A stretch of 24,925 nt of DNA from Spirogloea muscicola (lineage: Eukaryota > Streptophyta > Zygnematophyceae > Spirogloeales > Spirogloeaceae). Each line of letters starts with the position of its first letter. Position 1 is the stretch's first letter. The notes under the pieces are model-generated. The model was given only the letters and a program-made list of their open reading frames with translations. It made no database searches and was not told the DNA's origin. Shown piece after piece: positions 7,046-24,886 of this stretch. The stretch lies in NCBI GenBank assembly GCA_009602725.1, contig WELB01000241.1:23671-48595 (forward strand), given 5' to 3'. The position numbers and the translations under genes are program-made.

Positions 7046-7190
7046 TCTTAGCGCGTCCCCTGGCCCCCTTCTCGTCCTTTATTGATTCTTTTTTGGGCTG
7101 GCTTTCCAGCCCCTATTCTCACTGGGCGAGCACTTTCTTCTATTTTTCCAGCCACCAGTCAATCTGGCCGCGCTTTCTTTTTTTACTGGC
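7046..7190 (+). mobile_element. B-type 3' UTR end joined to a C-type tail
   Basis: A B-type 3' UTR (CCCCTGGCCCCCTTCTCGTC, hairpin, ACTGGGCGAGCACTTTCTTC) is followed at once by a C-type tail (CCAGCCACCAGTCAATCTGG). The order matches the B-in-C nest at 19430-19640, suggesting a copy of the same composite. Confidence 0.65.
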
Positions 7191-7261
7191 CCCTTCGAAC
7201 TCTGTTCATTCTCTTTCTGGGCTGGCTAATCACAGCCATCGCCATCTACTGGAAGAGTCTC

Positions 7262-7415
7262 TTTCTTCGCTAATGGAAAGCGCGGCCAGATTGACTGGTG
7301 GCTGGGAAAGACCAGCCCAAAGGAGAAGAGCGGCCAGATTGACTGGTGACTGGGAAAGAAGAATGAGCTCGCCCATAGAAGAGAAGAAAGTGCCCGCCCA
7401 TTGAGAAAAAAAAAA
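7262..7415 (-). mobile_element. Two C-type tails and a short terminal box
   Basis: Two successive copies of GCGGCCAGATTGACTGGTG with the hairpin arms, then CCCATAGAAG and GCCCGCCCATTGAG boxes and an A-run at 7405-7415. Non-coding 3' end debris. Confidence 0.6.
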
Positions 7416-7820
7416 TTGAGAAGAGGGGCTGGCAAAGCCAACCCAAGAAGAATGGACAATGTTCAAAGCCAAAGAAGTGCCGAAAAACAACATGAGCTCG
7501 CCCATAGAAGAGAGGGGCTGGCAGAAGCCAGCCAAAAAAGAATGGACAAAATCAAAAAGGACTACACTACAAAGTGCAAGAGGAAGCGCGGCCAGATGAA
7601 GAAGGTGCTCGCCCATTGAGAAGAGGGGCTGGCAAAGCCAACCCAAGAAGAATGGACAATGTTCAAAGCCAAAGAAGTGCCGAAAAACAACATGAGCTCG
7701 CCCATAGAAGAGAGGGGCTGGCAGAAGCCAGCCAAAAAAGAATGGACAAAATCAAAAAGGACTACACTACAAAGTGCAAGAGGAAGCGCGGCCAGATGAA
7801 GAAGGTGCTCGCCCATTGAG
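7416..7820 (-). repeat. 200-bp exact tandem repeat (two copies, plus start of a third)
   Basis: Bases 7421-7620 and 7621-7820 read identically, and a third unit starts at 7821 before diverging. Each unit holds two hairpins (GGGGCTGGCAAAGCCAACCC and GGGGCTGGCAGAAGCCAGCC), the terminal box, an A-type 3' UTR piece and part of a C-type tail. The Lys/Arg-rich frames across it simply repeat and are not genes. Confidence 0.9.
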
Positions 7821-7990
7821 AAGAGGGGCTGGCAAAGCCAACCCAAAAAGAATGGACAATGTTCAAAGCCAAAGAAAGAGGTGCTGAAAAAGGACTACAC
7901 TACAAAGTGCAAGACGGTGCAGAGGGAGATGCAGATGGCTGCTCAGTATCCACGTGTGAGCAACAGCAGATCAGAGTAACTCGGAGCAGG
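7816..7990 (-). mobile_element. A-type LINE 3' end
   Basis: Minus strand: last codons of the ORF (SDLLLLTRGY-like, stop complement at 7943-7945), then the A-type UTR (CATCTCCCTCTGCACCGTC, GTAGTGTAGTCC, hairpin, AATGGGCGAGC). 5'-truncated to about 175 bp. Confidence 0.8.
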
Positions 7991-8092
7991 AGAAGCAGAT
8001 TGACTGGTGGCTGGGAAAGGCCAGCCCAAAAGAATGGACAAAGTCTGAGGGAGCCTGAGTGCGAACGACTAGGACTAGGACATCAGCCAGGG
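7991..8092 (-). mobile_element. C-type LINE 3' UTR, left part of an interrupted copy
   Basis: Carries the C-type tail (CAGATTGACTGGTGGCTGGG) and body through CATCAGCCAGGGA. An uninterrupted C copy at 13840-13940 continues GAACGCTCAGTAACC, which here resumes at 12290. The intervening 4.2 kb is therefore inserted. Confidence 0.75.
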
Positions 8093-8282
8093 ACGACTTG
8101 GATCGGCCACACTTTCATTACATGCGCATTGCTAGCGTACAAAGTAATGGAGAGTGTGTTGAGTGATGAAGGGCCTGAGTGGCCGAGTACAAAGGCAAGC
8201 ACATCGACAGACGTACATCGCCATGCTGTTAAGCTGACCTGCTCAGTAACAACGAGTCGGCACATGGAGGTCCCTAACTGAT
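8093..8282 (-). mobile_element. D-type LINE 3' end
   Basis: Minus strand: short coding end resembling SDLYVLTRGY with its stop, then a D-type UTR (GATGTGCTTGCCTTTGTAC). It is more diverged than the D copies at 14.5-16.6 kb. It sits inside the C copy and directly abuts the intact element. Confidence 0.6.
8275..8282. repeat. Left putative target-site duplication of the intact element
   Basis: TAACTGAT here and at 12282-12289 exactly bracket 8283-12281. Confidence 0.6.
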
Positions 8283-11200
8283 AAACAGAAACAAAGGTGC
8301 TACGAGACACTCAGTAACCCCTGCTAAGCAGCCGCAGATCAGAGATGCTGGGCTCCTGGAAGTGGGTCCCCTGGCCAGAGCCAGAGGCAGCAGCGAGGGC
8401 TCTGCCGGCACGAAGGTGCAGCGCCCGGGCCATGGACCTCTGCAGCGAGACGGCCAGGCGCATTCGATACACTTGCGCCAGCGACCCGGCTGCAGGGAAG
8501 TCAACCGGCTCTCCATGGAAGCGCCGGGCGATGGTGTGGCGGGCGAGCTGGGTGAGCAGCTCGAGCCACTGAGCGCCCAGCGCCCCATGTGTGTCGATGG
8601 CCAACGGGAAGAACTCGTCTTCCCGCGGATGATCCGCGTACTTCAGCTCTTTGGCCCGAGCAGCGCAGGCAACCGCATACCCAGCCGTGGTGGCACAGTT
8701 AGCTGGGTGTGAGCGGTCATAGGCATCAGTAGTCACCACGTCCAGGAGAAGACGTGGCCCGCCGGCCTGTCGGGTGGCCACCAGGTCTACACGCGTGGCG
8801 TGGAGACCGTCGGCCCTGTGCTGGATTGGCATGATTCCGGAGTGCTCTGCTGCCACGGAGAAACCAGCCTCCAACAGGATGCCATGCATTACGTCGCGGA
8901 GGCGGTCGTGGGCCGCTGTCCGCTCTCCGCCGTGGGAACAGCGCAGAACATGAGCAGCCAGCTCTCCAGGCTCGGTCCCGCGCTCGCCACACTCACATTG
9001 ACGCACACCCTGGAGACATGGCGGCAGTAGGCCCAGGAGCCGGTGGACGGCACTTCGGAATACCTCGTCCGGGAGGGTGAGGGCGTCGTAGAGGGGGAGG
9101 GCCTGGAGCCACGCCGCAGCCCCCGGGGAAGAGGCCGAGTGGAGTCTCGCGCGCCCGCGCAAGTCGGCCTCGGGGAGCTGGAGCACGGCGGTGGTGTAGG
9201 CGGCCTTGTCGACCACTGCCGCGATGCGCGCTTGGACGCGCAAGTCGGCGGTGTGCGCGAGGTGCGCAAAGGATACCGCCTGGCCGGCCAGGTCCGGGTG
9301 CGCCGCGAGCAGCTCCTGGTGGGCGGAGCGAAGCGACACCTGGAACGGCAGCGGGCCCATGTCGACCTCCGCCACCGCCTGCTCCAGTGCCCGCCGGCCG
9401 TGGACCAAGAAGCGCTGGGCCACGGAGGCGGCAGTCTGCGCCCAGCTGCCGAGGTATGCCGCCCGGCAAGAACGAGCGAGCGGGCGCAGGCCGAGACCAC
9501 CGTGGCTGAGGGGTAGCGCCGCCTGGTGGATAGCTGCTGGCGACTGGAGGAAGCCCTGGTGGCGGACCAGGGCCGCCAAGCTCGCCACCATGCTTGCATC
9601 GAAATCTGCATACGCTGCCAACGCCCCAGGGGACGGCGGAGTGGCCCGCGTCAGGTACTGGGGCCGCTGCCCAATGGCCCTGGTCAACATGGCCAGCGAT
9701 AGTTGCATGTCGTCCAGCTCGGGAAGCCGGGCCGCAGGCTGAAGGTGCTCCGCCAGGCGGGCTCGCAGCTGCCCCTCCACGAAGGACGGCGCGCCGATGG
9801 GGACCCCCAGCAGGGTGAAGCCATCTGCTGGAGTTTGGCAGCCGGTGGGCAGCGTCAGGTTGGGTGGGAGGCCGCTGGGAGACCAGGCCGCGCACTTTGA
9901 CGCCCGGGTGGACAGGCCGAGGGTGGCCAGCTGCAGCTCAAGGGTGATGAAGGCCGCCGCCACGTCTTCCGGAGGGCCGACGATGGTGGTGTCGTCCGCG
10001 AAGGAGGGGAGTAGGACTCCTGGGTGTGCCGCGGCGGTTGCCTGCAGGGCCCGGTGGTGAGCGAGCGCAAAGTAGAAGCCGGCGAGGGGGTCTCCTTGCC
10101 GCGTGCCCGCTTGGGACTGCAGGACCTCCACTTGATCTCCCCCTGTCCGCCAGAGGAGGTCGCTGGGCTGACCGTACCCCAAGCGGAAAAAGGGTACCAG
10201 GGAGGGGAAGGATGCCCGGAGCTCCTCCGCAATGCTGGCGCGCTCCACAGTGTTGAAGGCATTCTTCACGTCAACGGCCAGCACCAGCCACCCCGGGTGC
10301 TGGTCCAAGGTCGCACGAACCCCATGGACGACGGCCTCGCCCCCACTCCGCAGCCCCGCGCCGTACTGGTGTGGCGCCATGTGCACCTGCGCCGGCCCCG
10401 CATGCTGCTGCCAGAGTACGCGGCTCACCAGGCGGTACAGGACCTCCCCAATGGCAATGGGCCTGACTCCCCCGCTCGGCTTGTCGAGGGCGAGCAGCGT
10501 GCTGGTGCACAGTACGCCGCGGATGCTGGCCGGCACATTGTCGCGGGCCATATGCTGGCAGATCTGCAGCAGCGCGTTGAAGTCTGTTGCCTCACCCTCA
10601 AGGAAGATCTCCCGCAGGTGCTCAGTTAGCATGCGGGAGGGGCCGCCGGCGGCTGCGCGACGGCTGGTCTGGAGAGCCTTCATGAGGGCGTCGGCGTCCA
10701 AGACCACCTCCTCCGGCGGGGCGAACGCGGCCAACCACGGTGGCAGGGGGGAGCTGGACGGGGGGTGGAGGGAGTCCAGAGCCGCCCGGGTTGCCGCATT
10801 GGTCGGCGCCAGCATCGCATCGTCCAGGGCCTGCACAGCCCGGGAGAGCTCGCCCGCGTGGCCGTAGCGAAGAGCCCTGCGGACGCTGGCGGCCCGGTCG
10901 TGTGTTGCCCCTCGACCACCACGGTTGGCTTCGGATGCCGCCACGGCTGCGTCGTGCCTCGCCAGGAGCTCCTCCCAGTGCCCGCTCTCGAACAACTGGA
11001 CGCGTTCCAAGAGGGGCTGCTGGCCCTGCTTGCGGCTGTCGAGAGAGACCCGCCCGAGCAACAGCCGGGGGAAGAGGATGAACAGCTTCCACGCCGCCTC
11101 GTCTCTGTGGTCCACGACGATCCGCTGTGTCACCGGGCGGAGCGCGCGGCGGAGGTGTGGGCGTGCCCAGCGTGGAACATGGCGTAGGAGCGGCAGGGCC

Positions 11201-12281
11201 GCCTGGCGGTGAACTGCGGCCAGGTCAAGGTCGGCCAGCCACTGCCAGTGGTGAGGCGTGGGCGGGGACGGCGCGGGAGGCCTGCCTGGTCTGCCCCGAC
11301 GACCACCCGCCGCCGCTGCGCTCCGCGCCTGCTCCGCACGGTTGATGTTGCCCGCGCAAGTTCGCTGGTGGTTGGACCGGCCGGACCGCGTGGTGAAGGT
11401 CCTCTGGCAAAGCTGGCACCGAGGCGGGTCGGGCGAGGGAGGAGAGGGCGACGGCGGTGGAGCCGGCTCGCTCGGCGGGGGTGGAGGCGGCGGAGATGGG
11501 GGGGGCGTCGATGGCGCCGACTGTGGAAGGCTGGGCGGCTCGAGAGGCGGGATGGCGGATGATCGGGAAGGCGGCGTCGGAGGAGGTGGGGGCGGTGGGG
11601 ACGTCGGCGGCTGTGGTGACGACGGCTCGGCGGGCGGTAGCGGCTGCCGCACCACTGTCGCCGGAGAAGCACACTCAGGGGCGTCAGGGCCGAGCACATG
11701 GGACATGGTACCCTGAGGATGGAGGAGCGTGGTCACCTCGTGGGTCCCCTCGCTTCTCAGGGGTGGAGGCGATAACGTTGGTGCCCGACACTTCTCTCGG
11801 GCGGGAGGCGATAGAGTAGTGGCCTCCGTGGAATGCTCCGTGGAATGCTCCGCCCGAGTGGATGCCAGGGCCTGGACGATGGGGCTGCAAGCCGCGACAG
11901 CCGCTGCGGGCGGCGGGCCGGTGGGGCTGGCATGCCCCTTGCAGTGTCGCCGATGCACAGAGACACCATGGGGAGTTGCGAAATCCCGCGGGCAGGTGGG
12001 GCACGGCGCGCGCGGGGGCTTCGCAGGCGAGGGTGGCGACGGCGGAAGAAGGGGGGGCTGCGGCGGAGGTGGCGTGGTGGCGGCATGGAAGGCGGCGAGG
12101 GTGAGGAACCGCTGCGCCCACGCGAACTTGGCCGGGGGAAGTTCGGGACTCCGGCTCCGAGGGCGGCGCCGAGAGCTGCACGCCGCCGCGGACCCCATGG
12201 CGGGCGCCGCCGGCGACGGCGCCGGCGGCGACCCGGGGTTTAAGAGGGGTGGTGGCGGCGGCGAAGGCGCGGGTTGAACGT
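8283..12281 (-). mobile_element. Intact RLE-type non-LTR retrotransposon (B family)
   Basis: A 3999-bp element with an 83-bp 5' UTR (12199-12281), one ORF (8311-12198) and only 28 bp of 3' UTR. It is flanked by an 8-bp direct repeat. Its 5' UTR and start region are matched by a second copy at 20650-20735 (shared TAAACCCCGGG and GGCGGCGCCCGCCATGGGG), which fixes the element's 5' side. Other B copies have about 150 bp of 3' UTR with the terminal hairpin. That part is missing here, so the 3' end is shortened or was primed internally. It lies within a D fragment that lies within a C fragment. Confidence 0.8.
8311..12198 (-). CDS. LINE polyprotein: C2HC zinc fingers, reverse transcriptase, RLE endonuclease (1295 aa)
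   Basis: Uninterrupted ORF. I chose the ATG at 12198 because the second 5' copy (20735) has the same MGS start context; 99 further open residues upstream only translate a neighbouring repeat and UTR. Domains: finger 1 at 66-86 (CPTC...HRRHC), a Pro-rich linker, finger 2 at 261-281 (CQLC...HQRTC), both C-x2-C-x12-H-x3-C; reverse transcriptase about 560-775 with VDVKNAFN (642-649), QAGTRQGDPL and FADD (733-736); a CxC...H...C knuckle at 1068-1087; endonuclease with RVD (Asp1138), LLLD (Asp1153) and Lys1183/Lys1186 (AKELK); conserved C-terminus SDLRLLSRGY. This is the R2/NeSL/CRE-like layout of RLE LINEs using target-primed reverse transcription. No apurinic endonuclease or RNase H is evident. 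All key residues appear present, so it may be active. Confidence 0.9.
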   Translation of the reverse strand: MGSAAACSSRRRPRSRSPELPPAKFAWAQRFLTLAAFHAATTPPPPQPPLLPPSPPSPAKPPRAPCPTCPRDFATPHGVSVHRRHCKGHASPTGPPPAAAVAACSPIVQALASTRAEHSTEHSTEATTLSPPAREKCRAPTLSPPPLRSEGTHEVTTLLHPQGTMSHVLGPDAPECASPATVVRQPLPPAEPSSPQPPTSPPPPPPPTPPSRSSAIPPLEPPSLPQSAPSTPPPSPPPPPPPSEPAPPPSPSPPSPDPPRCQLCQRTFTTRSGRSNHQRTCAGNINRAEQARSAAAAGGRRGRPGRPPAPSPPTPHHWQWLADLDLAAVHRQAALPLLRHVPRWARPHLRRALRPVTQRIVVDHRDEAAWKLFILFPRLLLGRVSLDSRKQGQQPLLERVQLFESGHWEELLARHDAAVAASEANRGGRGATHDRAASVRRALRYGHAGELSRAVQALDDAMLAPTNAATRAALDSLHPPSSSPLPPWLAAFAPPEEVVLDADALMKALQTSRRAAAGGPSRMLTEHLREIFLEGEATDFNALLQICQHMARDNVPASIRGVLCTSTLLALDKPSGGVRPIAIGEVLYRLVSRVLWQQHAGPAQVHMAPHQYGAGLRSGGEAVVHGVRATLDQHPGWLVLAVDVKNAFNTVERASIAEELRASFPSLVPFFRLGYGQPSDLLWRTGGDQVEVLQSQAGTRQGDPLAGFYFALAHHRALQATAAAHPGVLLPSFADDTTIVGPPEDVAAAFITLELQLATLGLSTRASKCAAWSPSGLPPNLTLPTGCQTPADGFTLLGVPIGAPSFVEGQLRARLAEHLQPAARLPELDDMQLSLAMLTRAIGQRPQYLTRATPPSPGALAAYADFDASMVASLAALVRHQGFLQSPAAIHQAALPLSHGGLGLRPLARSCRAAYLGSWAQTAASVAQRFLVHGRRALEQAVAEVDMGPLPFQVSLRSAHQELLAAHPDLAGQAVSFAHLAHTADLRVQARIAAVVDKAAYTTAVLQLPEADLRGRARLHSASSPGAAAWLQALPLYDALTLPDEVFRSAVHRLLGLLPPCLQGVRQCECGERGTEPGELAAHVLRCSHGGERTAAHDRLRDVMHGILLEAGFSVAAEHSGIMPIQHRADGLHATRVDLVATRQAGGPRLLLDVVTTDAYDRSHPANCATTAGYAVACAARAKELKYADHPREDEFFPLAIDTHGALGAQWLELLTQLARHTIARRFHGEPVDFPAAGSLAQVYRMRLAVSLQRSMARALHLRAGRALAAASGSGQGTHFQEPSISDLRLLSRGY

Positions 12282-12289: not shown

Positions 12290-12345
12290 GAACGCTCAGT
12301 AACCTCTCTAGTCTGCACTCGACTCTGCCTGAACAATGTATTGGC
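12290..12345 (-). mobile_element. C-type remnant, right part of the interrupted copy
   Basis: GAACGCTCAGTAACCTCT includes the C-type stop (complement of 12296-12298) and continues the sequence left at 8092. Similarity fades within about 40 bp. Confidence 0.6.
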
Positions 12346-12354
12346 TTGAATTGA

Positions 12355-12475
12355 AGAAAGGGCTCGCCCATTGAGGATAGGGGCTGGACAAGCCAGCCCA
12401 AAAAAGAATGAACAAAGAACGAGAAGGGGGCCAGAGGAAGCCAGAGGAAGCGCTAAGAAACCAAAGCACACAGCT
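12355..12475 (-). mobile_element. B-type 3' UTR fragment
   Basis: Terminal box GCTCGCCCATTGAG, hairpin GGGGCTGGACAAGCCAGCCC, then the B-type body GAACGAGAAGGGGGCCAGAG and GAAGCGCTAAG. No coding sequence is kept. Confidence 0.75.
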
Positions 12476-12519
12476 TGAATTGGCCTCCCTTTCAATTCAT
12501 GCGCCCCGCGCGCCTTCTC

Positions 12520-12850
12520 TCTCTAGACAGGAGATGCCGGTCCGAGAAGCTAGCTGGCGGAAAGACGTCGCCCCGACGGAAGCCGGAGGCCGCCGCCAAA
12601 GCTCGGCCTGCGCGCAAGTGAACCGCGAAGGCGAGGGACCGCTGCATCGAGACGGCCAAACGCATACGGAAAACCTGAGCGAGGGACCCGGCTACGTTGA
12701 AGCCGGGCTGCTCGCCCTGCTGCCCGAGGCGGCGGCCCGCTGCACGCCGCGCCAGGCGGTGGAGCAAGTCAAGCCATTTGGAGCCAAAGGCTCCGTGCAC
12801 GTCCACTGCCAGTGGAACGAACTCGTCGCCCACCGGGTGGTCCGAGTACT
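12520..12850 (-). pseudogene. C-type RLE C-terminus fragment
   Basis: Minus-strand frame reads TRKYSDHPVGDEFVPLAVDVHGAFGSKWLDLL through RALAAASGFRRGDVFPPAS and ends near a degenerate SDRHLLSRE. It is the last ~110 residues of an RLE LINE. The normal RGY stop is lost and the 5' side is cut and joined to an A-type UTR piece. Confidence 0.75.
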
Positions 12851-12905: not shown

Positions 12906-13350
12906 CATAGAAGAAGAAGGGCTCGCTCATTGAGAATATGGGCTGGAACAGCCAGCCCAAAAAAGAATGAACAGAGTACAAGAAAAGGGGGGGGGAAGCC
13001 AGGCGAAGCCCTAAGGCGAAGCAGCAGAAATGACAAGCACACAAGAAAAAACAAAGCAGCTACTAACCACTCAGTAACCCCTGCTAAGCAGGCGCAGGTC
13101 GGAGAGGCTATGCTCCTGGAAGTATGTCCCCTGGCCAGAGCCAGAGGCAGCAGCAAGGGCTCGGCCAGCACGCAGGTGCAGCGCACGGGCCATGGACCTC
13201 TGCAGCGAGACGGCCAGGCGCATGCGATACACCTGGGCCAACGACCCGGCGGCGGGGAAGTCTACCGGCTCCCCATGGAAGCGGCGGGCAACGGCGTGAC
13301 GAGCAAGTTGGTGGAGCAGTTCGAGCCACCGAGCACCCAACGCACCCAAC
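12906..13350 (-). pseudogene. B-type LINE 3' end with RLE C-terminus
   Basis: Minus strand: open frame MGALGARWLELLHQLARHAV to SDLRLLSRGY (stop complement 13071-13073), then a full B-type 3' UTR and hairpin to about 12906. It is 5'-truncated at 13350, where it meets a plus-strand B end head to head. The protein is close to the same part of the intact element. Confidence 0.8.
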
Positions 13351-13416: not shown

Positions 13417-13737
13417 GTCAATGGCCTGGCGGGCAAGCCGCTGAAGGAGATCCAGCCAGCGGCTGCTGAAAGCCCCGAGTCATCCATCGCCAGGGTTGGC
13501 GAACTCATCGCCAACGGGGTGATCAGCGTATTTTCGCTCCTTGCCCCGGGCCGCCAGGCCAACCGCGTGCCCGGCAAACGACGCCGATCTGGTGGAATTG
13601 GCGGAGTCGCACTGGTGGAATTGGCGGAGTCGCAGCAGTCAGTTGTCACGTAATCGGCGGGGACCGCCGCCGGGCGTGATGGCGACCAAGGCGCGTCGGC
13701 GCGTCGTGTATGGGAGCTGCCGTCCGCGCACCTCCGC
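13417..13737 (-). pseudogene. Degenerate A-type RLE fragment
   Basis: Minus-strand similarity to VVTADCVDSANPAKSATLVG and DHPPGDAFAALAIDVHG, spread over several frames. It contains a local tandem duplication of CTGGTGGAATTGGCGGAGTC at about 13588-13633. Confidence 0.6.
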
Positions 13738-13815
13738 TCATTCTTTTTTGGGCTGGCTTTTCCAGCCCCTTATTTTTTTCTCAATGGGCGAGCACTTTCT
13801 TCTAATTAGAAGAAA
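13738..13815 (+). mobile_element. Terminal hairpin module, plus orientation
   Basis: TTTTTTGGGCTGGCTTTTCC, CAGCCCC, then CTCAATGGGCGAGCACTTTC. It is the 3' end of a B-like element without coding sequence, placed at the edge of the degenerate A fragment. Confidence 0.7.
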
Positions 13816-13819
13816 GAAG

Positions 13820-14140
13820 AAGCGCGGCCAGATTGACTGGTGGCTGGGAAAGGCCAGCCCAAAGGAATGGACAAGGTCTGAGGGAGCCTGATGAGTGCGA
13901 CGACTAGGACTAAGACATCAGCCAGGGAACGCTCAGTAACCTCTAATCAGGAGATGCAAGTCTGAGTAGCTAGCTGGCGGAAAGACGTCGCCCTGACGGA
14001 AGCCGGAGGCCGCCGCAAAAGCTCGGCCTGCGCGCAAGTGAACTGCGAAGGCAAGGGACCGCTGCATCGAGACGGCCAAACGCATACGGAAGACTTGTGC
14101 GAAATACCCGGCGACAAAGTAGCTACGAATCACTCACTCT
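13820..14140 (-). pseudogene. C-type LINE 3' end
   Basis: Minus strand: VAGYFAQVFRMRLAVSMQRS through AFAAASGFRQGDVFPPASYS and DLHLLIRGY (stop complement 13933-13935), then a complete C-type UTR ending in the CAGTCAATCTGGCCGCGC tail. It shows what the C host at 8092/12290 looked like before insertion. Confidence 0.8.
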
Positions 14141-14428: not shown

Positions 14429-14525
14429 TGAGAAAGTGCTCGCCCATTGAGAAGATGGGCTAGGAAAGAAAGCACGGCCAGAAAAGCCAGCCCAAAAAAG
14501 AAGAAAATGCCCGCCCATAGAGGAA
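14429..14525 (-). mobile_element. Terminal box and hairpin fragments
   Basis: GTGCTCGCCCATTGAGAAGA, a broken hairpin, and a second CCCGCCCATAGAG box. These are 3' end debris leading into the D array. Confidence 0.6.
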
Positions 14526-14830
14526 AAAATAATATATATAAGAAACAAATGTAGGCCAAACGGCCAAGTACAAAAGGCAAGCACATCTAACGATCTACAT
14601 AACCTCAAGCAGATTGACCCGCTCAATAACCACGGGTCAAAACATAAAGGTCACTAATCGATGCATGAATATAAGATGCCAGAAACGGAACCCTTCTGCC
14701 ACCAACTGGAGCTCGCCCAGCTTTCTGGTGTAAGGCACTAGCCTGAGCACGCTGCAAACAGGCCGAAACTCGTCGTCGGCCGGAAACACATCTGCACGTC
14801 AAGTGTAGCCTAGATTGGCAATGTTTTGAA
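14526..14830 (-). pseudogene. D-type LINE 3' end, copy 1
   Basis: Minus strand: coding end with SISDLYVLTRGY (stop complement 14623-14625), then D-type UTR through GATGTGCTTGCC and CCGTTTGGCC to about 14526. The upstream coding part (LLQNIANLGYT) matches copy 3. Confidence 0.75.
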
Positions 14831-15055
14831 GGAGCGTGTGGAAGGTCGCTGATTGATGCCTGAATACCAGATAGCAGATTCCAACCTTTCTTCCAACAAC
14901 TAGAGTTCGCCCAGCTTCTGGTGCAAAGCGTGAGCCTGAGCAGGCTGCAAACCGACCGGCACTCGACGGCGCAAGAACGACAGATATGCAGCTGGCAAGC
15001 CACCTCAGCCGGAAGCACATCTGCGCATCGTGCATAACCAGAAGGGAATCGCGTG
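14831..15055 (-). pseudogene. D-type coding fragment, copy 2
   Basis: Minus strand: VACQLHI...RRRVS-like and ISDL end region similar to copies 1 and 3, but it lacks its own stop and UTR and is joined straight to copy 1. More diverged than the other two. Confidence 0.65.
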
Positions 15056-16210
15056 TATTTGAAACAAACGAAGGCCAAATGGCCAAGTACAAAGGCAAGC
15101 ACATCTGAAGACCTACAAAACACAACAGCAGACTGACCCGCTCAGTAATCACAGGTCAATTTTTGAAGGTCGCTAATCGATGCCTGAATACTAGATGGCA
15201 GACACGAAGCCCTTCTGCCACCAACTAGAGCTCGCCCAGCTTTCTGGTGCAAGGCATTGGCCTGAGCACGCTGCAAACAGGCCGAAACTCGTCGTCGCAA
15301 GAACGACAGATATGCAGCTGGCAAGCCCATCTCAGACGGGAACACATTTGCATGTCGTGTGTAGCCTAGATTGGCCATGTTTTGAAGGAGAGTAAGGAAA
15401 CGAGGGCCTGAGCAGCCAAAAATGTCGCCTGCCCCTGGCAGGAGCAGATCACATTGAGGATAGTCGGAGTAGTGCTGCAGTTTTCTTTGTTCTGCACTGC
15501 CCACTGCGTGGCCAGCGATGTGTGTCGATGCTGGACCTCTATGCGCCTCCACGACATCGACCAGGGCCCGTGGTCCTCCACCAGGTTGCACGCCCACAAT
15601 GCCAAGTGTGCGGCGATGATGACGTCCCTGGGCATCCGTGGTGATAGGCATGATGTTGTTCTCTTCCACGACCGCACGGTACCGGCGTCGTGCATCAACC
15701 TCGCCAGGGCATCACGGAGGAGGTTGTGGATGCCCACCACTTCTGGTCCAGTGGGGCATCGCAGCATGTGAGTGGCGAGCTCGGCACTCTCTGCACGGAA
15801 GCCGCACTCACACTGGCGCACCCCAATCAGGCATTTAGGTGGAGGCCGAGGAAAGAGTTGAAGCGATGTCCGAAAGGCCTCAGAGCTGATGCTGAAGGCG
15901 TTGGCGACGGGGGAAGAGGTGATCCAGTCAGTGGCACCAGGTGAGGCTAGAGAAGTAAGTCTTGCCAAGCTCCTTGGATTGTTCTGAATCTCTGGCAGCC
16001 TCCTCAACCTTCTGCGGCGTTAGTCTTCCACTGCCGTAACCAGTCTGGATTGTGCCCCTCTATCAGAAGCCTGGGCGAGGGCAGAGAACGGCGTGGACGG
16101 GGTTGGAGAAAGGGGAAAGAGCTGATGGCTGAGTCGCGGATGCTCCTCAGATCCGCTTGGAAGGGGAAGGAGCCTTCCTCCACCTTGCACACAGGGTCGT
16201 GGAGGCGCGT
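15056..16210 (-). pseudogene. D-type LINE, longest copy (RLE region)
   Basis: Minus strand: DPVCKVEEGSFPFQADLRS at about 16130-16205, then the CCHC knuckle (CECG...HMLRC) near 15770, an endonuclease segment with GGGPRALVDVVEA, and a C-terminus RALVGGRR...SISDLQKLTCDY (stop complement 15142-15144). The UTR continues to about 15062. Frames shift at least twice, and the first endonuclease Asp position reads TLGIV, so it is dead. It is distinct in sequence from A, B and C, with the same domain order. Confidence 0.75.
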
Positions 16211-16375
16211 AGCGAGAAGAGGGGCTGGCAAAGCCAACCCAAAAAGAATGGACAATGTTTAAAGCCAAAGAAACAAGTGCCGAAAAAGGACTACACTACA
16301 TAGTGCAAGACGGTGCAGATGGATGCTCAGTATCCACGTGTGAGCAACAGCAAATCAGAGCAAATCGGAGCAGGA
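16211..16375 (-). mobile_element. A-type LINE 3' end
   Basis: Hairpin GGGGCTGGCAAAGCCAACCC, A-type UTR, stop complement (GCTCAGTATCCACG) and about 40 bp of ORF end. It lies between two D copies. Confidence 0.75.
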
Positions 16376-16600
16376 AATGAAAGTGCCCGCCCATAGAGAA
16401 GAAAAGAGATCGTGTATTAGAAAGAAATGTAGGCCAAATGGCCAGGTACAAAGGCAAGCACATCTAAAAATCTACATAACCTACAGCAGATTGACCCGCT
16501 CAATAACCACGGGTCAAAACATAAAGGTCACTACTCGATGCATGAATACTAGATGCCAGGAACGGAGCCCTTCTGCCACCTACTAGAGCTCGCCCAGCTT
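16376..16600 (-). mobile_element. D-type LINE 3' end, copy 4
   Basis: Terminal box GCCCGCCCATAGAG, D-type UTR (GGCCAAATGGCC, AAAGGCAAGCACATCT), stop complement at 16500-16502 and about 100 bp of coding end. Nearly the same as copy 1. Confidence 0.75.
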
Positions 16601-16702
16601 TCAGAGAAGAGGGGCTGGCAAAGCCAGCCCAAAAAGAAAGGACAATGTTAAAAGCCAAAGAAAGAAGTGCCGAAAAAGGAGAGCTCGCCGATAGAGAAGA
16701 AA
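16601..16702 (-). mobile_element. A-type 3' UTR fragment
   Basis: AGGGGCTGGCAAAGCCAGCC, AAAGCCAAAGAAAGAAGTGC and AAAAAGGA, cut before the stop, followed by a small GAGCTCGCCGATAGAG box. Confidence 0.7.
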
Positions 16703-17016
16703 GTGCTCGCCCATTGAGAATAGGGGCTGGAACAACCAGCCCGAAAAAGAAGAGGGGCCAGGCCCGCAAGAAAGAAGAAAGTGCTCGCCCATTGAGAATA
16801 GGGGCTGGAACAACCAGCCCGAAAAAGAATGAACAGAGTACGAGAAGGGGGCCAGGGGAAGCGCTAAGTAACAGAAACAAAGCTGCTACGAGACACTCAG
16901 TAACCCCTGCTAAGCAGCCGCAGATCAGAGATGCTGGGCTCCTGGAAGTGGGTCCCCTGGCCAGAGCCAGAGGCAGCAGCGAGGGCTCTGCCGGCACGAA
17001 GGTGCAGCGCCCGGGC
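16703..17016 (-). pseudogene. B-type LINE 3' end with a partly duplicated tail
   Basis: B-type UTR whose terminal module (GTGCTCGCCCATTGAGAATA, hairpin) occurs at 16703 and again at 16781. The coding end (stop complement 16897-16899) reads RAGRALAAASGSGQGTHFQE to SDLRLLSRGY. From 16870 to 17016 it is almost identical to 8283-8430, so it is a recent relative of the intact element. It breaks at 17017. Confidence 0.8.
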
Positions 17017-17017: not shown

Positions 17018-18113
17018 GCAAGACTGCGCTTGTGGACAAAGCGGCCTATGACCTTAGCCCTAGCATCTCCGACCTGCGGCTGCTTAGCAGAGGTTACTGA
17101 GTGATTCTCCTGTAGCTCTTTGGATTTTGTCCATTCTTTTTTGGCTGGCTTCTCTCTCTCTGCCAGCCCCTCTCTTCTATGGGCGAGCTCATTCCTATGA
17201 CCAGGTGGTGGAGCTCCTTCCGCCGCACGACATCCGAGGGCGCGCCCGGATCCTCTCCGCCTCCTCCCCGGGAGCGGCGGCGGGGCTATCAGCACTCCCC
17301 ATCTACGCGGCGCTGACAACTCCAGACGCGGTATGAAGGACGGCGGCCCACCGGCTCCTTAGCCTCCTCCCTCCCTGCCTCGTCGGGGTCCAACAGTGCG
17401 AGTGCGGTGCCCGCCACGATGACCCTGCAACGCTGGCGGCCCACATGCTCCGCTGCGCGCACGGGGGCGAGCGGACAGGTTCGCACGACCTCCTGCGAGA
17501 CGCCATGCAGGGTGTGTTCCTGGAGGCCGGCTACAAGGTGGTAGTGGAAAACTCGACGATTATGCCCATCCTGCAGGGCGCTGACGGACAGCTTCACACC
17601 CGCCGCGCGGACCTCGTTGCCATCCCGCCCGGAGGAGGTCCGCGTATCATCGCTGATGTGGTGACTGCAGATTGCGTTGATTCGGCCAACCCCGCGAAGT
17701 CGGCGACGCTCGTCGGGCACGTGGTCGCTTTGGCGGCTCGGAGTAAGGAGCGCAAGTACTCTGACCACCCTCCAGGCGATGCCTTCGCGGCACTAGCCAT
17801 TGACGTACACGGGGCCTTCGGCATTGGCTGGTTGGATCTCCTCCAGCGGCTTGCCCGGGAGGCCATCGAGCGGCGGCAGGGCTTGCCAGGTTTCAATACT
17901 GCCGGCTCCCTCTCGCAGGTTTTTCGGATGAGGCTGGCGGTCTCGCTGCAGCGCTCTTTGGCTCATGCGGTCCACGCGCGCGCTGGCCGTGCTATGGCTG
18001 CTGCTTCTGGGTCTCGACAGAGTGCCGCTTTTCCTGCTTCGAGTTACTCTGATCTGCTGTTGCTCACACGTGGATACTGAGCATCCATCTGCATCTCCCT
18101 CCGCACCGTCTCG
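17018..18113 (+). pseudogene. A-type LINE, RLE half, interrupted (left arm of inverted repeat)
   Basis: Plus strand: TALVDKAAYD, a 140-bp insertion, then VVELLPPHDIRGRARILSAS to a CxC...HMLRC knuckle, RRADLVAIPPGGGPRIIADV, KERKYSDHPPGDAFAALAID and YSDLLLLTRGY (stop 18078-18080), plus the first ~33 bp of UTR. There is an in-frame TGA at 17334-17336 where the sister copy has TTT. Beyond it the endonuclease core (Asp, Asp, Lys) is intact. No RT part is present. It faces a near-identical minus copy across 18113/18114. Confidence 0.85.
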
Positions 18114-19257: not shown

Positions 19258-19640
19258 GGCCGAGCGCGCAGGCCGAGCTTTGGCGGCGGCCTCCGGCTTC
19301 CTTCAGGGCGACGTCTTTCCGGCGGCTAGCTACTCAGACTTGCATCTCCTGACTAGAGGTTACTGAGCGTTCCCTGGCTGATGTCTTAGTCCTAGTCCTT
19401 CGCACTCTGGCTCCTTCAGACCTTGTCCAGCTTAGCAGGGGTTACTGAGTGATCCGTAGCTGCTTTGTTTTTTTGTGTGCTTGTTTTTCTTAGCGCTTCC
19501 CCTGGCCCCCTTCTCGTCCTTTGTTGATTCGTTTTTGGGCTGGCTTTTCCAGCCCCTACTCTCAATGGGCGAGCACTTTCTTGTCTATTTTTCTGGGTTG
19601 GCCTTTCCCAGCCACCAGTCAACCTGGCCGCGCTTTCTAT
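19258..19640 (+). pseudogene. C-type LINE 3' end, interrupted
   Basis: Plus strand: about 35 codons ending AASYSDLHLLTRGY (stop 19364-19366), C-type UTR to CCTTGTCCA. It resumes at 19580 with CTTGTCTATTTTTCTGGGTT and the CAGTCAACCTGGCCGCGC tail. A B-type fragment lies between. Confidence 0.8.
19430..19579 (+). mobile_element. 150-bp B-type insertion with short TSD
   Basis: Starts GCTTAGCAGGGGTTACTGAG, carries the B-type UTR and hairpin, and ends CAATGGGCGAGCACTTT. The flanks CTTGTCCA (19422-19429) and CTTGTCTA (19580-19587) match at 7 of 8 positions, with six contiguous (CTTGTC). Confidence 0.75.
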
Positions 19641-20632: not shown

Positions 20633-21907
20633 TATCGTTGGTCCGGAAGAGCTAGGTCGCGGGCGCCGCCGCCGTAGCCGCCACCCCTCCTAAACCCCGG
20701 GCCGCTGCAGGCGCCATCGCCGGCGGCGCCCGCCATGGGGTCCACGGCGGCGAGCAGGCCCCCGCGCCGGCCCCCGATGCCATCACCGCTCCCGTCGCCG
20801 ACGCGCCGCCCGCCGTCGCCACACTCGCGCGTTCTCGTCGCCGCCTTCGGAGCCGGAGTTCCAAACTACCCCCGGCCAAGTTCGCTTGGGCGCAACGGTT
20901 TCTCGTCCTCTCCGCCCTCGATGCTGTCACCAGGCCATCTTTACCGGCCCCAGCGCCATCGCCTCCATGCACCGGAAGCATTGCGAGGGGTATCCCAGCT
21001 CCGCCGGCGCGACGACCTTCACCACGCGGTCAGGCCGGGCCAACCAAGCGCGAGCCTGTGAGAGCCGCAACAATCGTGCGGAGCAGATGCGGAGCCCCGC
21101 GGCTGCGGGTGGCCGTCGGGGAGGACCAGGCAGGCCAGGCCCTCCAGCCCCATCCCCTCCCACGCCTCCGCACTGGCAGTGGCTGGCCGGCCTCGACCTG
21201 GCTGCTGTCCACCGCCAGGCGGCCCTCCCGCTTGTGCGGCATGTCCCCGCTGGGTGCGCCCGCACATTCGTTGCGCGCTCCGCCCGGCGATGCAGCGGAT
21301 TGTCCGAGACCACCGGGACGAGGTGGCCTGGAAGCTCTTCCTCCTCTTCCCCCCGGATTGTGTCGATTCCGCCAACCCCGCAAAGTCGGCGACGCTCGCC
21401 GGGCACGCGGTCGCTTTGGCGGCTTGGAGTAAGGAGCGCAAGTACTCTGACCACCCTCCAGGCGATGCCTTCGCAGCCCTAGCCATTGACGTACACGGGG
21501 CCTTCGGCAGTGGCTGGTTGGATCTCCTCCAGCGGCTTGCCCGGGAGGCCATCGAGCGGCGGCCAGGTTTGCCAGGCTTCAATGCTGCCGGCTCCCTGGC
21601 GCAGGTATTTCGGATGAGGCTGGCGGTCTCGCTCCAGCGCTCTTTGGCTCATGCGGTCCACGCGCGCGCTGGCCGTGCTATGGCTGCTTCCGGGTCTCGG
21701 CAGAGTGCCGCTTTTCCTGCTCCGAGTTACTCTGATCTGCTGTTGCTCACACGTGGATACTGAGCATCCATCTGGATTTCCCTCTGCACCGTCTCGTGCT
21801 TTGCAGTGTAGTCCTTTTTCGGCTCTTATCTCTTTGGCTTCGGACATTGTCCATTCTTTTTCGGCTGGCTTTGCCAGCCCCTCTTCTCTATGGGCGAGCT
21901 CTTTCTT
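20633..21907 (+). mobile_element. Nested A-type LINE with 5' and 3' ends but RT deleted
   Basis: A 1275-bp insert with a ~100-bp 5' UTR, an ATG at 20735 in the same context as the intact element, zinc-finger remnants and the downstream HWQWLAGLDLAAVHRQAALP. It jumps at about 21355 from KLFLLFP to DCVDSANPAK, then has the A-type C-terminus (stop 21761-21763), UTR, hairpin and CTATGGGCGAGCTCTTTCTT. CTGGG occurs on both flanks. Host sequence reads EPG/GELAAH across it. Confidence 0.8.
21179..21763 (+). pseudogene. In-frame fusion of N-terminal region to RLE, no RT
   Basis: Within the nested A copy, the segment RIVRDHRDEVAWKLFLLFP runs directly in frame into DCVDSANPAKSATLAGHAVA and on to YSDLLLLTRGY. 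In the intact element these points are roughly 800 residues apart. The whole RT, the knuckle and the first endonuclease Asp are gone. The N-terminal frame shifts more than once before 21290, so I treat it as a deletion derivative, not a gene. Confidence 0.65.
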
Positions 21908-22489: not shown

Positions 22490-22607
22490 AAAAACTGATC
22501 GCCCACAAAGAAGAGGGCCGGCAAAGCCAGCCCAAAAAGAATGGACAATGTCCAAAGCCAAAGAAAGAGGAGCTACAAAAGGACTACACTACAAAACATA
22601 AGACGAT
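22490..22607 (-). mobile_element. 118-bp UTR-only LINE insertion with 12-bp TSD
   Basis: Minus strand: A-type UTR from GTAGTGTAGTCC through hairpin to TGTGGGCGATCAGTTTTT. It is flanked by GCTCTGGCCAGG at 22478-22489 and 22608-22619. It has no coding sequence. Removing it restores the host reading ASGSGQG. Confidence 0.9.
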
Positions 22608-22812
22608 GCTCTGGCCAGGGGACCCGCTTCCAGGAACCCAGTTTCTTTGACGTAAGGCTGCTTAGGTTACTGAGTGCTTCGTAGCTGCTTAATTACTTCT
22701 TGTGCTTGTTTATTTTCAGTGCTTCCCCTGGCCCCTTCTCGTCCTTCGTTCAATCTTTTCCGAGCTAGCTTCTTCCAGCCCTTATCCTCCATGAGCGAGC
22801 CCTTCTTCTTTT

Positions 22813-22925
22813 AGCTGCTATTTCTGGGTTTCGTCTGGGTGCCTCTTTACCAGCTCTTTACCAGCTTTTTGGGTTGGCTTTGCCAGCCCCTCTTCTCCAT
22901 GGGCGAGCTCTTCTTCTTTGCCAGC
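22813..22925 (+). mobile_element. Terminal hairpin module, plus orientation
   Basis: GGGTTGGCTTTGCCAGCCCC and CCATGGGCGAGCTCTTCTTC, preceded by a small duplication of CTCTTTACCAG. The upstream 40 bp has no clear match here. Confidence 0.65.
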
Positions 22926-23060
22926 TGTCTTAGTAAAAGGGGGCGAGGGCTGTGAACGGCCAGCCCAAAGCGCTTTCTCTCCAAACAAAAGTGGCTCTCC
23001 CAATGGGGGCAAGGGCTGTGGAAAGCCAGCCCGAAAAGAATTGACAAAAGGTTCGAAGTG
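22926..23060 (-). mobile_element. Diverged hairpin modules
   Basis: Two minus-oriented variants (GGGCGAGGGCTGTGAACGGC; GGGGCAAGGGCTGTGGAAAG) with CCAGCCC arms. They resemble the module at 24722, so they may belong to the E group. Confidence 0.55.
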
Positions 23061-23300
23061 GCCAAATGACGGAGGGGCCTAAAGCTCTATGTCAGAGCCT
23101 CTCCCCTCTTTCCCTGCAGCAAGCTACTCAGACCTGATGTTGCTCACTCGTGGGTACTGAGCTTCCCTCTGCATCGTCTACGTGTTTTGTAGTGTTTTGT
23201 AGTGTAGTCCTTTTTGGCCCCTCTTTCTTTGGCTCTAGACATTGTCCATTCCTTTTGGACTGGCTTTGCCAGCTCCTCTTCTTTATGGGCAAGCGTTTCT
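23061..23300 (+). mobile_element. A-type LINE 3' end with an E-type scrap at its left
   Basis: GGAGGGGCCTAAAGCTCTAT at about 23072 matches the E-type UTR. Then come plus-strand codons PAASYSDLMLLTRGY (stop 23158-23160), A-type UTR with an internal duplication (GTGTTTTGTA twice), and the hairpin and TATGGGCAAGCG end. Confidence 0.75.
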
Positions 23301-23480
23301 TCTATGTCAGAACGGGAGGAGGAGGGACCACTCAGTAGGCGGGCAGGCCATGCACTGGTGCTGCTTCTGGGTCTTGTCGGGGTGCCTCTCGGAGGGGCCA
23401 GCCCCTATCCTCAATGGGCGAGCACTGTCTTCTCGGAGGGGCCTAAAGCGCTATGTCAGAAAGGGAAGAGGAGGAACCAC
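23301..23480 (-). mobile_element. E-type 3' UTR, duplicated start
   Basis: GACCACTCAGTAGGCG near 23325 and AACCACTCAGTAGCGC near 23475 are two copies of the E stop region. Between them lies the UTR (CCTAAAGCGCTATGTCAGAA) with a tiny insertion at 23400-23430. Confidence 0.65.
23400..23430 (+). mobile_element. 31-bp LINE tail insertion with 13-bp TSD
   Basis: The insert is only AGCCCCTATCCTCAATGGGC plus GAGCACTGTCT, the last ~30 bases of the B-type 3' end. TCTCGGAGGGGCC occurs at 23387-23399 and 23431-23443. The uninserted form (GGAGGGGCCTAAAGC) is seen at about 23072. Confidence 0.85.
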
Positions 23481-24712
23481 TCAGTAGCGCCCAGTGAGGA
23501 ACCTCAAATCTGACAGACTAGCTGCCGGCAAACAATCCCCTTGGCGAAAGCCAGAGGCTGCAGCGAGAGCACGGCCAGCACGCAGATGCAAGGCGTGGGC
23601 CATGGAACACTGCAGGGAGACTGACAAACGCATGCGATAAACGTGGGCCCACGAGCCAGCGGCGTTGAAGTCAGCCGGCTCAACTCGCCTGCAGGACACA
23701 GCGCGCCGCGCAAGCCTGGCCAGCAGGTCGAGCCACTGGGACCCGAGAGCATCGTGCACGTTCACGGCCAGGGGTACGGACTCGTCTCCAACCGCGTGGT
23801 CAGCGTGTTTGGCCGCCTTGCTGCGAGCGGCCTTCGCCGCAGCATGGCCAGCCCGCAAGGCAGAAAGCTCCGGATTGAATCGGTCCACCACATCGGTGGT
23901 GACCACGTCTGCAATGATGCGTGCGCCTCCTCCGGCGTCGAGGCCACCAAGTCCACGCGGCGCGTGTGGTGTCTGTCGGCAATCTGAAGAATTGGCATGA
24001 CAGAAGTATTCTCCATCGCCACCGTGTAGCCGGCCTCCTGGAAGCTGCCGAAGATTTCATCCCGGAGGAGGTCGTGAACAGCTGTACGTTCACCTCCAGT
24101 GGTGCAGCGAAAGACATGTGCCGCCAGCTCCGCCGGGTCCGCCGACCGCTTCCCGCACTCAGACTGCAGCACGCCTAGCAGACGGGGCGGGGGGTGACCC
24201 AACAGGCGATGGGTTGCCATACGGAAGAGCTCATCCGGCATCCTGAGGGCATCGTACAGGGGGAGCGCGGAGAACCAGGCTGCCGCGCCAGGGGAGGCGG
24301 CCGACCGCAGCCGGCCGCGCACGTCTGTCGGAGGGAGGAGCCGCAGCGTGGCCGTGAAGGCCGCCTTGTCGACTGCCGCCATGTACCGCGCCTGCGCTTG
24401 CGAGTCGGTGGAGTGGGCAAGGTGGTCAAACGGGACCACGTTCTCTGCGAGGGCAAGGTGCTCCGCAAAGCAACTCGTGTTGAGCAGAGCGGAGCGCCAC
24501 CTGAAAAGGCAGCGAGCCGGTCGCCACCTCCGCCACAGCCTGCTGCAACGTGGGCCGCCCATCATGGAGAAAGCGCTGTGCCACCGACGTGGCGACCTGA
24601 GCCCAACTGCCGAGGTACGCTGGCCTGCAGATGCGAGCGAGCGAGCGAGGCCGCCATGGCCGACGGGCAGAGTGGCGGCCTGGTGAAAGACCATCACGTC
24701 TGGGCTGGCCAT
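23481..24712 (-). pseudogene. E-type LINE, C-terminal half (RLE region)
   Basis: Minus strand from about 24712: VGHGGLARSLA, ENVVPFDHLAHSTDSQAQAR, AAVDKAAFTATLRLLPPTDV, a knuckle region reading SECGKRS...HVFRC (first Cys replaced by Ser), GGERTAVHDLLRD and RRVDLVAS. A frameshift lies near 23910-23945, then VVTTDVVDRFNPELSA to SLSDLRFLTGRY (stop complement 23481-23483). It is truncated before the RT. The lost Cys and the frameshift argue it is dead. Same domain order as the intact element but clearly separate in sequence. Confidence 0.8.
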
Positions 24713-24886
24713 TCACTTCCAGTGGCGGGCGAGGGCTGTGGATGGGCAGCTGAAAGAATGAGTAGGCGGAGTTCGAGGTGGGCCAGAAGAAAGAAAAAGA
24801 GAGAAAGCACATCGGAAGAGCCATCTTGCGTCGCGCCGGCCGCCCGCCGGCCGCCGCCGCCGGGGCGCATGTCGCGCCTGGCCCGC

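Follow-up and report, generated by a model that had tools for sequence, protein, structure and literature searches.

The R2 elements (R2Bm, R2Tg, R2Pm) are the closest described counterparts of the LINEs considered here. The core of the R2 3' UTR is described as P1, J1/2 and P2, and a 43-nt 'R2 tag' is reported (PMC10499050; PMC12222951); this small two-stem core is needed for target-primed reverse transcription (TPRT) (PMC10499050). We analysed a window of 24,925 nucleotides from the alga Spirogloea muscicola, which is a nest of R2-like LINEs (with reverse transcriptase, RT, and restriction-like endonuclease, RLE). Their tail of about 65 nt, with one hairpin, a box and a possible outer helix, differs from the two successive stems described for R2 (PMC10499050; PMC12222951). 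In both cases the RT is combined with a C-terminal RLE, and TPRT, which in R2 starts from a short structured 3' element, would do so in the present elements too; R2 has a single target site, whereas the present elements occupy many sites and are nested in each other.

UnaL2, ZfL2-1 and ZfL2-2, which are L2-clade LINEs with an APE endonuclease and 3' repeats, resemble the present elements in their 3'-terminal stem-loop and in the sharing of tails between elements. Their stem-loop is needed for retrotransposition and their partner SINEs share the tail (PMC4176376; for the 3' repeats of UnaL2 see PMC3747384), whereas no such partners were noticed in our sample of tails (see below). In an L1 lineage of maize and sorghum and its SINEs the last 45 nt are conserved and contain a hairpin with CGAG 3' of the stem (PMC3747384). 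There, as here, the tail is far better conserved than the rest, and CGAG can be compared with our box ATGGGCGAGC, a likeness of four letters that may be due to chance; those elements, however, belong to the L1 clade and compensatory stem changes are reported for them (PMC3747384), whereas none stood out clearly here. A green alga, Chlamydomonas, offers a case of LINE/SINE tail sharing in its RandI/Dualen LINEs and SINEX elements, but these have repeats, for example (ATT)n, at their ends, unlike the present ones (PMC3747384). The principle of such a tail is known from other jumping genes, while the present one and the elements that carry it seem to be of a new form. Among the literature titles and abstract openings listed, none dealt with a tail of this kind in algal R2-like elements; we make no claim that it is unpublished.

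Host elements and their protein

Judged by their sequences, the elements are R2-like LINEs with a C-terminal RLE. The subfamily labels used below are our own, the labels A to D of the initial annotation having come without definition. The A-family ORF lies at 8314..12192 (-), where 1,293 aa were taken from a frame that is open over 1,403 codons (C-terminus SDLRLLSRGY*), and has the domain order: C2H2-like fingers (N-terminal matches that fall below the Pfam cut-offs), RT (RVT_1 match, E 7.8e-16), zinc knuckle and RLE. In the C-terminal region of seven aligned proteins the CCHC knuckle is found in six and DVV in all seven; we take RADLV...DVV...K..KY to be the restriction-like endonuclease motif. 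A profile search of the PDB with the A-family protein returned three sequences, all three of them R2, and R2 proteins were also the three best matches in another PDB sequence search; LINE clades other than R2 are poorly represented in the PDB, so the placement of the A-family RT next to R2 is provisional. With Foldseek, the C-terminal 300 aa had five R2 chains as their five best matches (E from 3.7e-3 to 3.5e-2 and in no case below 0.001, with low TM scores and a query model of mean pLDDT 54); the predicted model of the 1,036-aa RT-RLE part (pLDDT 40) was set aside.

A long uninterrupted RT frame was found in four subfamilies with two tail types, A, F and two of the C-type (C2, C3), and B has an open frame of 1,130 codons. 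The RTs form one clade, A being 71%, 69% and 67% identical to F, C2 and C3, respectively, over the aligned region. At least ten full-length protein matches in the genome rounded to 100% identity, the copy counts from the protein search being lower bounds since the best candidates alone were scored. The flanks of the 39 A ends that we read were diverse and hence point to no single target, different from the insertion of R2 proper in 28S rDNA.

The shared tail in the window and in the genome

The 3' end of several subfamilies is formed by a tail with the following parts: a TTGTYCATTCTTTT stretch, a GGGCTGG/CCAGCCC hairpin of 6-8 bp, a pyrimidine spacer and the box ATGGGCGAGC, about 65 nt in all. 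Past the box follow ACTTTCTTCT in A, ACCTTCTTC in B and CTTCTTCT in F, and thereafter diverse flank. Roughly 30 copies had been estimated for the window and indeed the box with at most one mismatch matched 29 times (3.3 expected, largest shuffle 8), but five of these matches are non-tails by position, which leaves 24. The five lie in host-gene sequence (289), in C-type RT coding sequence (14321) and in D coding sequence (14711, 15230, 16588), where CTGGGCGAGC encodes A-G-R-A. The strict combination of hairpin, spacer and box matched 14 times, once (289-333) inside the host gene.

The best-defined end in the window is that of a 5'-truncated A2-type insert at 12354..12472 (-), which ends in ATGGGCGAGC and CCTTTCTT, stops 8 nt past the box and is flanked by a clean 10-bp target-site duplication (TSD) CAATTCAAGC (12473-12482 and 12344-12353). 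Tails of the A-type were found at 7076..7137 (+, box CTGGGCGAGC), 12916..12981 (-, box ATGAGCGAGC), 13736..13800 (+, spacer lengthened by a T run), 16699..16747 (-, match starting just before the hairpin, at model position 23), 16776..16845 (-) and 19518..19580 (+, with a C-type tail behind it at 19595). The B-type tails, with upstream motif, hairpin, spacer and box, lie at 7600..7671 (-), 7800..7871 (-), 7385..7471 (-, elongated spacer, box ATGGGCGGGC), 21835..21906 (+), 22865..22914 (+, match starting just before the hairpin, at model position 22) and 23231..23300 (+, box ATGGGCAAGC), and those of the B2-type at 7492..7557 (-, in a repeated 200-bp unit with a second copy at 7692-7757) and 17118..17195 (+, enlarged loop). 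The remaining types are C (hairpin and ACCAGTCAATCTGGCCGCGC, a diverged box; 7280..7318 (-), 13822..13860 (-) and 19595..19633 (+)), E (hairpin, TTGCCCCC and ATTGGGAGAGCC; 22993..23032 (-)) and, as the weakest assignment, G (hairpin and ACTGGAAGAGTC; 7219..7259 (+)).

The D family has a distinct tail, GGCCATTTGGCC...CTAATACACG(ATCTCT) at 16411..16444 (-) and a variant without the box (CAAATACACG) at 15052..15085 (-), and the end GGCCATTTGGCC...CTAATACACGATCTCT was present in all 11 D copies that were fetched. Short versions of the box had been reported to flank D copies; they are instead D coding sequence or the severed boxes of B tails. One B tail, at 16585..16657 (-), is interrupted in its spacer by D sequence (its match extends into a D look-alike box), and its own severed box lies at 16379-16402 (-) with CTTCTCT on both sides; another is severed at 16213..16267 (-) and its box is probably that at 14502-14526 (-), beyond the D sequence, the duplication being imperfect. 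The boxes at 14509 and 16385 beside D are thus most simply explained by entry of D into the spacer of a B tail. Whether the spacer is a general insertion hot spot was considered and rejected: such insertions were seen in few tails, but in none of 40 sampled A copies.

In the whole genome we counted 7,845 exact matches (3963 + 3882; reversed control 0 + 0) to CCAGCCC-N(3-16)-ATGGGCGAGC, which joins the 3' arm of the hairpin to the spacer and box of the A/B type, and 2,235 and 2,588 exact ends of the E-type and C-type, respectively (reversed controls 0). A simple hairpin scan of twelve random 10-kb stretches gave 21 matches, only some of them tail-like; one stretch was all N and eight others partly N, and no density is claimed. 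We also sampled A copies by an upstream word (the first 40 of the 100 places listed out of 1,221, contigs C1-C4). In 39 of the 40 the box was present and the copy stopped 4-10 nt after it, one of the 39 (L158) having a damaged hairpin; 10 nt of ACTTTCTTCT were retained in 27 copies, 9 in 6 and 4-8 in 6 (one mismatch tolerated). Among copies chosen by coding sequence, 49 of 51 had the end of their own family (A 12/13, F 5/6, B 8/8, E1 7/7, E2/E3 10/10, C 4/4, C2 3/3). These counts include, with a caveat, L103 (tail beyond an insert), L058 (flank soon N) and L022 (ends 4 nt past the box), and leave out: L036 (disrupted UTR), L061-L069 (too little sequence to reach most tails), L038-L040 and L020 (further A-like tails, all of which have hairpin and box), L049-L053 (B2-B4, box in each by eye), L113 and L119 (degenerate E tails) and L120 (wrong-side stretch). 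No poly(A) run was present at the counted insertion ends. This agrees with the initial annotation, by which insertions end near the box and need no poly(A), and the abundant insertions ending elsewhere that it had named as counter-evidence did not turn up among the upstream-word copies.

At 13 junctions for which the empty target is known, an average of 1.8 nt was shared with it (raw mean, uncorrected for chance). We also inspected by eye 22 pattern-chosen tails of the 100 listed, all from contig C1. In four the insert was seemingly truncated inside the hairpin with the 3' end still complete, as expected if copying begins at that end; neither a non-LINE body nor a SINE partner was noticed on any of the 22.

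Conservation and folding of the tail

Among A, B, F, B2, C, C2, E1 and E2 the tails are 66-92% identical (52-56% when shuffled). The UTR bodies are at most 5 points above shuffled in 20 of the 28 pairs, in which the tails are 12-39 points above, and more than 5 points above in 8 pairs. The bodies of A, B and C had been called unrelated, which applies to A and B (59% versus 63% shuffled; A-B2 49% versus 56%), whose tails, like those of A and B2, are 81-86% identical (about 55% shuffled), but not to A and C, where body (72%) and tail (71%) are equally alike. Similarly, the common end of hairpin, spacer and box holds for A and B, whereas C ends in the hairpin and ACCAGTCAATCTGGCCGCGC and the boxes have diverged to AATCTGGCCGCGC in the C-type and to ATTGGGAGAGCC in the E-type. 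Compared with the eight other tails, that of D does not rise above the shuffled level in six cases and lies 6-8 points higher in the remaining two, F and B2. A B-type tail stands at the end of C135, a full-length copy of the A lineage (94% identical); apart from this copy, the sampled RT lineages retain their own tail version.

Across the five core pairs of the inner stem, 97.6% of cells are paired, and most changes are to G-U. Compensatory changes, which had been proposed as a check on the stem, did not clearly exceed those in shuffles: two-sided changes were found in 5 pairs versus 3.8 in shuffles (133 of 500 as high) and in none of the five core pairs, and the five measures were matched by 242, 133, 48, 48 and 112 of 500 shuffles. 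The alignment was made from sequence only, out of the best 150 of 176 matches (115 of them distinct; tails of C and E and partial ones were included), with a model that carried no structure, to avoid bias toward one, and the test has little power because the stem is nearly invariant. Compared with slid partners, 85.4% versus at most 57.8% of cells were paired, the structure being drawn from the same sequences. Since covariation does not clearly surpass the shuffles, the conservation may be one of sequence rather than of structure.

A motif upstream of the hairpin, TTGTYCATTC, is new here and is also kept in C and E. In the A/B/F clade we tentatively pair it with the box as an outer helix around the hairpin: for eight A/B/F tails, shuffled upstream stretches folded as well in 4 to 104 of 400 cases and equalled the number of upstream-box pairs in 2 to 274 of 400 (274 in F). 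As a general feature the outer helix was rejected, shuffles being as stable in 248 (C) and 394 (E1) of 400, and a possible outer helix of D did not outdo those formed after shuffling upstream (as stable in 233 of 400, with as many pairs in 204 of 400). The motif pairs poorly with the boxes of C and E, where it is kept nonetheless, and so has some other role. Swapping upstream strands and boxes between families was uninformative, because A, B and C hardly differ in the upstream strand. By eye, a pairing between hairpin loop and box was noticed for A2 and E1.

A putative recognition element for reverse transcription

The shared end is, in our judgement, probably a stringent 3' recognition element for TPRT in one superfamily of R2-like LINEs: a 3'-terminal feature is kept although the greater part of the UTR is not, nearly all sampled insertions end there and poly(A) is absent, which gives it the look of the stringent type. 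Roughly the terminal 65 nt of the RNA would bind the element's own protein, presumably through the RT, with each RT preferring the version of its own subfamily; the protein would then bring the 3' end of the RNA, which lies 4-10 nt past the box, to the nicked target, where TPRT would start without poly(A). Selection on this step would preserve the tail while the upstream UTR drifts. The idea that the RT recognises the shared end agrees with its position, conservation and sharp ends, from which we infer the recognition itself.

The tail could instead be a signal for transcription termination or 3' processing, with sharp insertions just mirroring sharp RNA ends. We think this possible but a good deal less probable: a short pyrimidine run behind a hairpin could plausibly serve as a processing signal and the ends are nearly fixed, but a stretch with a complete A tail lies upstream in three full-length copies (C66, C453, C135), which share it but differ in their start points, which is most simply read as reverse transcription of read-through RNA (by eye; segmental duplication is the alternative), and the variation of the end points by several nt, together with the short target sharing at the junctions, is more like a choice made by the RT.

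It had also been suggested that one active family mobilises the others through the common tail; A would be an example of such a family acting in trans. C135, with its A-lineage RT and B-type tail, indicates that tails may be interchangeable and keeps this conceivable, but mobilisation by a single family is not needed where A, F, C2 and C3 have their own long RT frames and B an open frame as well; moreover, that no non-LINE body was noticed on the 22 inspected tails and that the other sampled RT lineages keep to their own tails make us doubt it. Similarly speculative is a picture in which an outer helix UUGUYCAUU/AAUGGGCGA closes over the hairpin in A/B/F and the RT reads this compact two-helix end and sets its start point at a distance of 8-10 nt, C, E and D having replaced the second helix by different 3' structures while keeping the hairpin or its place, so that exchangeable tails might allow R2-like LINEs to mobilise each other.

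Youth or close kinship of the subfamilies without functional constraint is improbable as the sole cause: all RTs are in one clade and A and C are as alike in body as in tail, but tails stand far above shuffled in the 20 pairs whose bodies do not; part of the sharing could nevertheless be common descent, given A-C and the eight pairs with related bodies. That the endonuclease prefers a target site which includes the box, so that the box would be taken from the insertion locus and would not belong to the element, as tails severed in the spacer might suggest (window 16213 and 16585; L025/L026; L116; by eye), is hardly credible, being already contradicted by the TSD cases, in which the insert at 12354-12472 and C195 (GAAACAAA on both sides) carry box and terminal pyrimidines as element sequence, and by the 40 sampled A copies, none of which is cut between hairpin and box.

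R2 proteins are under development for RNA-templated gene insertion (PMC12222951) and which templates their RTs accept is a live question. With its many subfamilies, its at least ten protein matches of about 100% identity and its more than 12 thousand exact tail matches, the clade offers a natural record of the 3' ends that were accepted, of the limits of tail divergence and of the points at which reverse transcription started.

The locus and its LINE proteins

The genome that was searched comprises 153 Mb in 471 contigs, the window being on contig C241. A host gene whose WD40-like matches are weak lies on the left of the window; from ~7 kb rightwards, LINE copies in either orientation form a nest. 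The chlorophyll a/b-binding family gave 68 genome matches, every one over the curated cut-off, which marks the source as a photosynthetic eukaryote, probably an alga. One LINE copy, of the A family, has a long open frame (8314-12192, minus strand) with an RT domain, a C-terminal knuckle and a restriction-like endonuclease. Among solved structures, R2 proteins were its sole relatives in a profile search and its three best matches in a single-sequence search; the five best hits of a low-confidence model of the knuckle and endonuclease were likewise all R2 chains (E 3.7e-3 to 3.5e-2). A genome search with the A protein (36 candidates scored out of 30,257) gave at least 39 matches; those listed included at least 10 full-length A proteins rounding to 100% identity and at least six near-full-length members of a second family, F (68% identity to A). 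The D protein is related but divergent (36% across the part that aligns).

Three further features of the window were observed: i) a 200-bp tandem duplication of a B2-tail + B-tail unit (7415-7814), probably recent because its copies are 100% identical; ii) a 488-nt inverted repeat of the B-family 3' coding end (17624-18111 and 18141-18628; 95%, arms 29 nt apart); and iii) a 38-T run at the right end (24888-24925).

A shared hairpin with several boxes

We counted exact versions of the element end throughout the genome: 7,845 of A/B type, 2,235 of E type (CAGCCCTTGCCCCCATTGGGAGNGCCACTTC) and 2,588 of C type (CCCAGCCACCAGTNNATNNGGCCGCGC), with 0 for each reversed control. By these counts, the GGGCTGG/CCAGCCC hairpin is common to the A/B, C and E types, with a box in at least three versions that align mutually. 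The initial annotation had given its subfamilies A, B and C one hairpin and one box; the hairpin holds for these types, but the single box does not. The D tail has a different hairpin (GGCCATTTGGCC) and a different end, CTAATACACGATCTCT, found in 11/11 D copies with 0-6 nt of ATCTCT kept.

The UTR bodies (stop codon to tail) and the tails (the last ~65 nt) were compared with their shuffled levels for the 28 pairs among A, B, F, B2, C, C2, E1 and E2. The bodies, called unrelated for A, B and C in the initial annotation, mostly show little similarity: 20 pairs lie at most 5 percentage points over the shuffled level (e.g. A-B 59% vs 63%, A-B2 49 vs 56), but eight exceed it by more (A-C, 72 vs 59; A-C2, B-F, B-C2, B-E1, B-E2, C-C2 and E1-E2). 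The tails show 66-92% identity (52-56% shuffled) among themselves and 53-66% (57-60% shuffled) to the D tail. In the A-C pair, body (72%) and tail (71%) are equally alike, which argues against selective retention of the tail between these two.

Boxes do adjoin D, as was initially noted, but those at 14711, 15230 and 16588 are look-alikes, being D codons for A-G-R-A. Two others, at 14509 and 16385, come after D sequence. Beyond D in each case stands a B hairpin with its spacer, severed where the box should follow (16213 and 16585). The 16585/16385 stretch has CTTCTCT on both sides; the duplication around 16213/14509 is imperfect. Junction flanks of D copies elsewhere are pyrimidine-rich by eye, and the pyrimidine spacer is therefore a likely D insertion target.

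Copy ends and probable recognition of the tail

In copies picked by coding sequence, for which the 3' sides were fetched, the expected end was found in 49/51 of those counted (A 12/13, F 5/6, B 8/8, E1 7/7, E2/E3 10/10, C 4/4, C2 3/3). The exceptions were one copy that stops at CTATTCTC ahead of the box (C165) and an F copy adjoining a B2 tail cut at the spacer, its own box missing (C111). In a stricter survey, copies were taken by a 27-nt word from the region upstream of the A hairpin, which has 1,221 exact matches in the genome (control 0); the first 40 listed were fetched. The box was reached in 39, one with a damaged hairpin (L158), and the remaining copy (L146) is broken before the hairpin. 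After the box, these 39 kept 10 nt of ACTTTCTTCT in 27 cases, 9 in six and 4-8 in six. This survey addressed the abundant insertions ending elsewhere that the initial annotation had named as a refutation of its reading, and it left that reading unrefuted.

Among 22 tails sampled by pattern, four inserts (L161, L164, L177 and L183; ~45 nt, seemingly less than a whole tail) look by eye to be cut off inside the hairpin with the 3' end complete, and for this reason copying most likely begins at the tail. Its start point varies within ~6 nt. Junctions share on average 1.8 nt with the known empty target (n=13, three with none; a mean without shuffled baseline), and the short overlap would match pairing of the target end with the RNA end to prime copying. 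In R2, a small structured 3' UTR core starts copying, a 43-nt version being enough in vitro (PMC10499050). On these grounds the tail most likely serves a clade of R2-like, stringent-type LINEs as recognition element, with protein binding that we infer.

One tail (L170) contains several degenerate repeats of a CCAGCCCC(T) segment, such as an RT slipping or restarting at the hairpin might leave. One host repeat (GGCCAATTCAAGCCAATAC), which lies in the window at 12320-12353 and 12473-12530, was hit twice at about the same point, by an A2 insert there and by an F insert on contig C63 (L027 and L028).

Of the cells at the five core pairs of the inner stem, 97.6% are paired, and these pairs are nearly invariant; such changes as occur affect one side, mostly giving G-U. 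The compensatory changes that had been proposed as a check do not stand out: two-sided changes affect 5 pairs over the whole structure where shuffles give 3.8 (a level reached by 133 of 500 shuffles), or 9 against 5.5 counted by cells (48 of 500). A structural role is neither supported nor excluded by this. Upstream of the hairpin lies a conserved TTGTYCATTC, absent from the first list of features, which in single-strand folding of A/B-clade tails is predicted to pair with the box around the hairpin; the A2 tail has a different lowest-energy fold. Dinucleotide shuffles folded as well as the whole tail in 1/200 (A) and 0/200 (B), an advantage to which the hairpin itself contributes part, and in 34 (C), 36 (E), 3 (G) and 16 (D) of 200. 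Shuffling the upstream stretch alone (400 trials per tail) matched the fold in 49 (A), 11 (A3), 63 (A2), 102 (B), 48 (F), 4 (B2), 104 (B3) and 38 (B4) trials, and the upstream-box pair count in 2, 53, 14, 123, 274, 18, 139 and 82, respectively. These eight tails are related, not independent, and the control leans towards a real outer helix in A/B/F tails short of proof. On stability, the control lends the outer helix no support in C and E tails (upstream shuffles as stable in 248 for C, 204 C3, 100 C2, 394 E1, 288 E2 and 269 E3 of 400), which retain the upstream motif despite this failure.

Possible mobilisation between families

That one active family mobilises the others, as first proposed, is not needed, since A, F (L098), C2 (L094) and C3 (L097) each have a long uninterrupted frame, ending in S-D-L-x-L-L-[ST]-R-G-Y. 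Such help is possible, because the C135 copy (L019/L020) joins an A-lineage ORF (94%) to a 3' UTR switching from A-type to B-type, making it a chimeric element. No SINE-like partner was noticed among the 22 tails sampled by pattern. The 5' sides of three full-length A copies (C66, C453 and C135; L013, L017 and L019) carry the same upstream piece, another A tail plus ~200 nt, with differing starts; most simply, this is reverse-transcribed RNA that had read through past one tail (5' transduction). We consider it rather unlikely that the A/B/F box is the 3' strand of an outer helix from which the RT measures its start point, that C, E and D use substitutes for this helix, and that exchangeable tails create a network of mutual mobilisation; the pair-count control for F (274 of 400) makes this slightly less likely.

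Conserved 3' hairpins, kept though the rest has diverged, are known in L2- and L1-type LINEs (PMC4176376; PMC3747384). The present tail differs from these in its clade, which has a restriction-like endonuclease, in the hairpin-plus-box form with its possible outer helix, and in scale.
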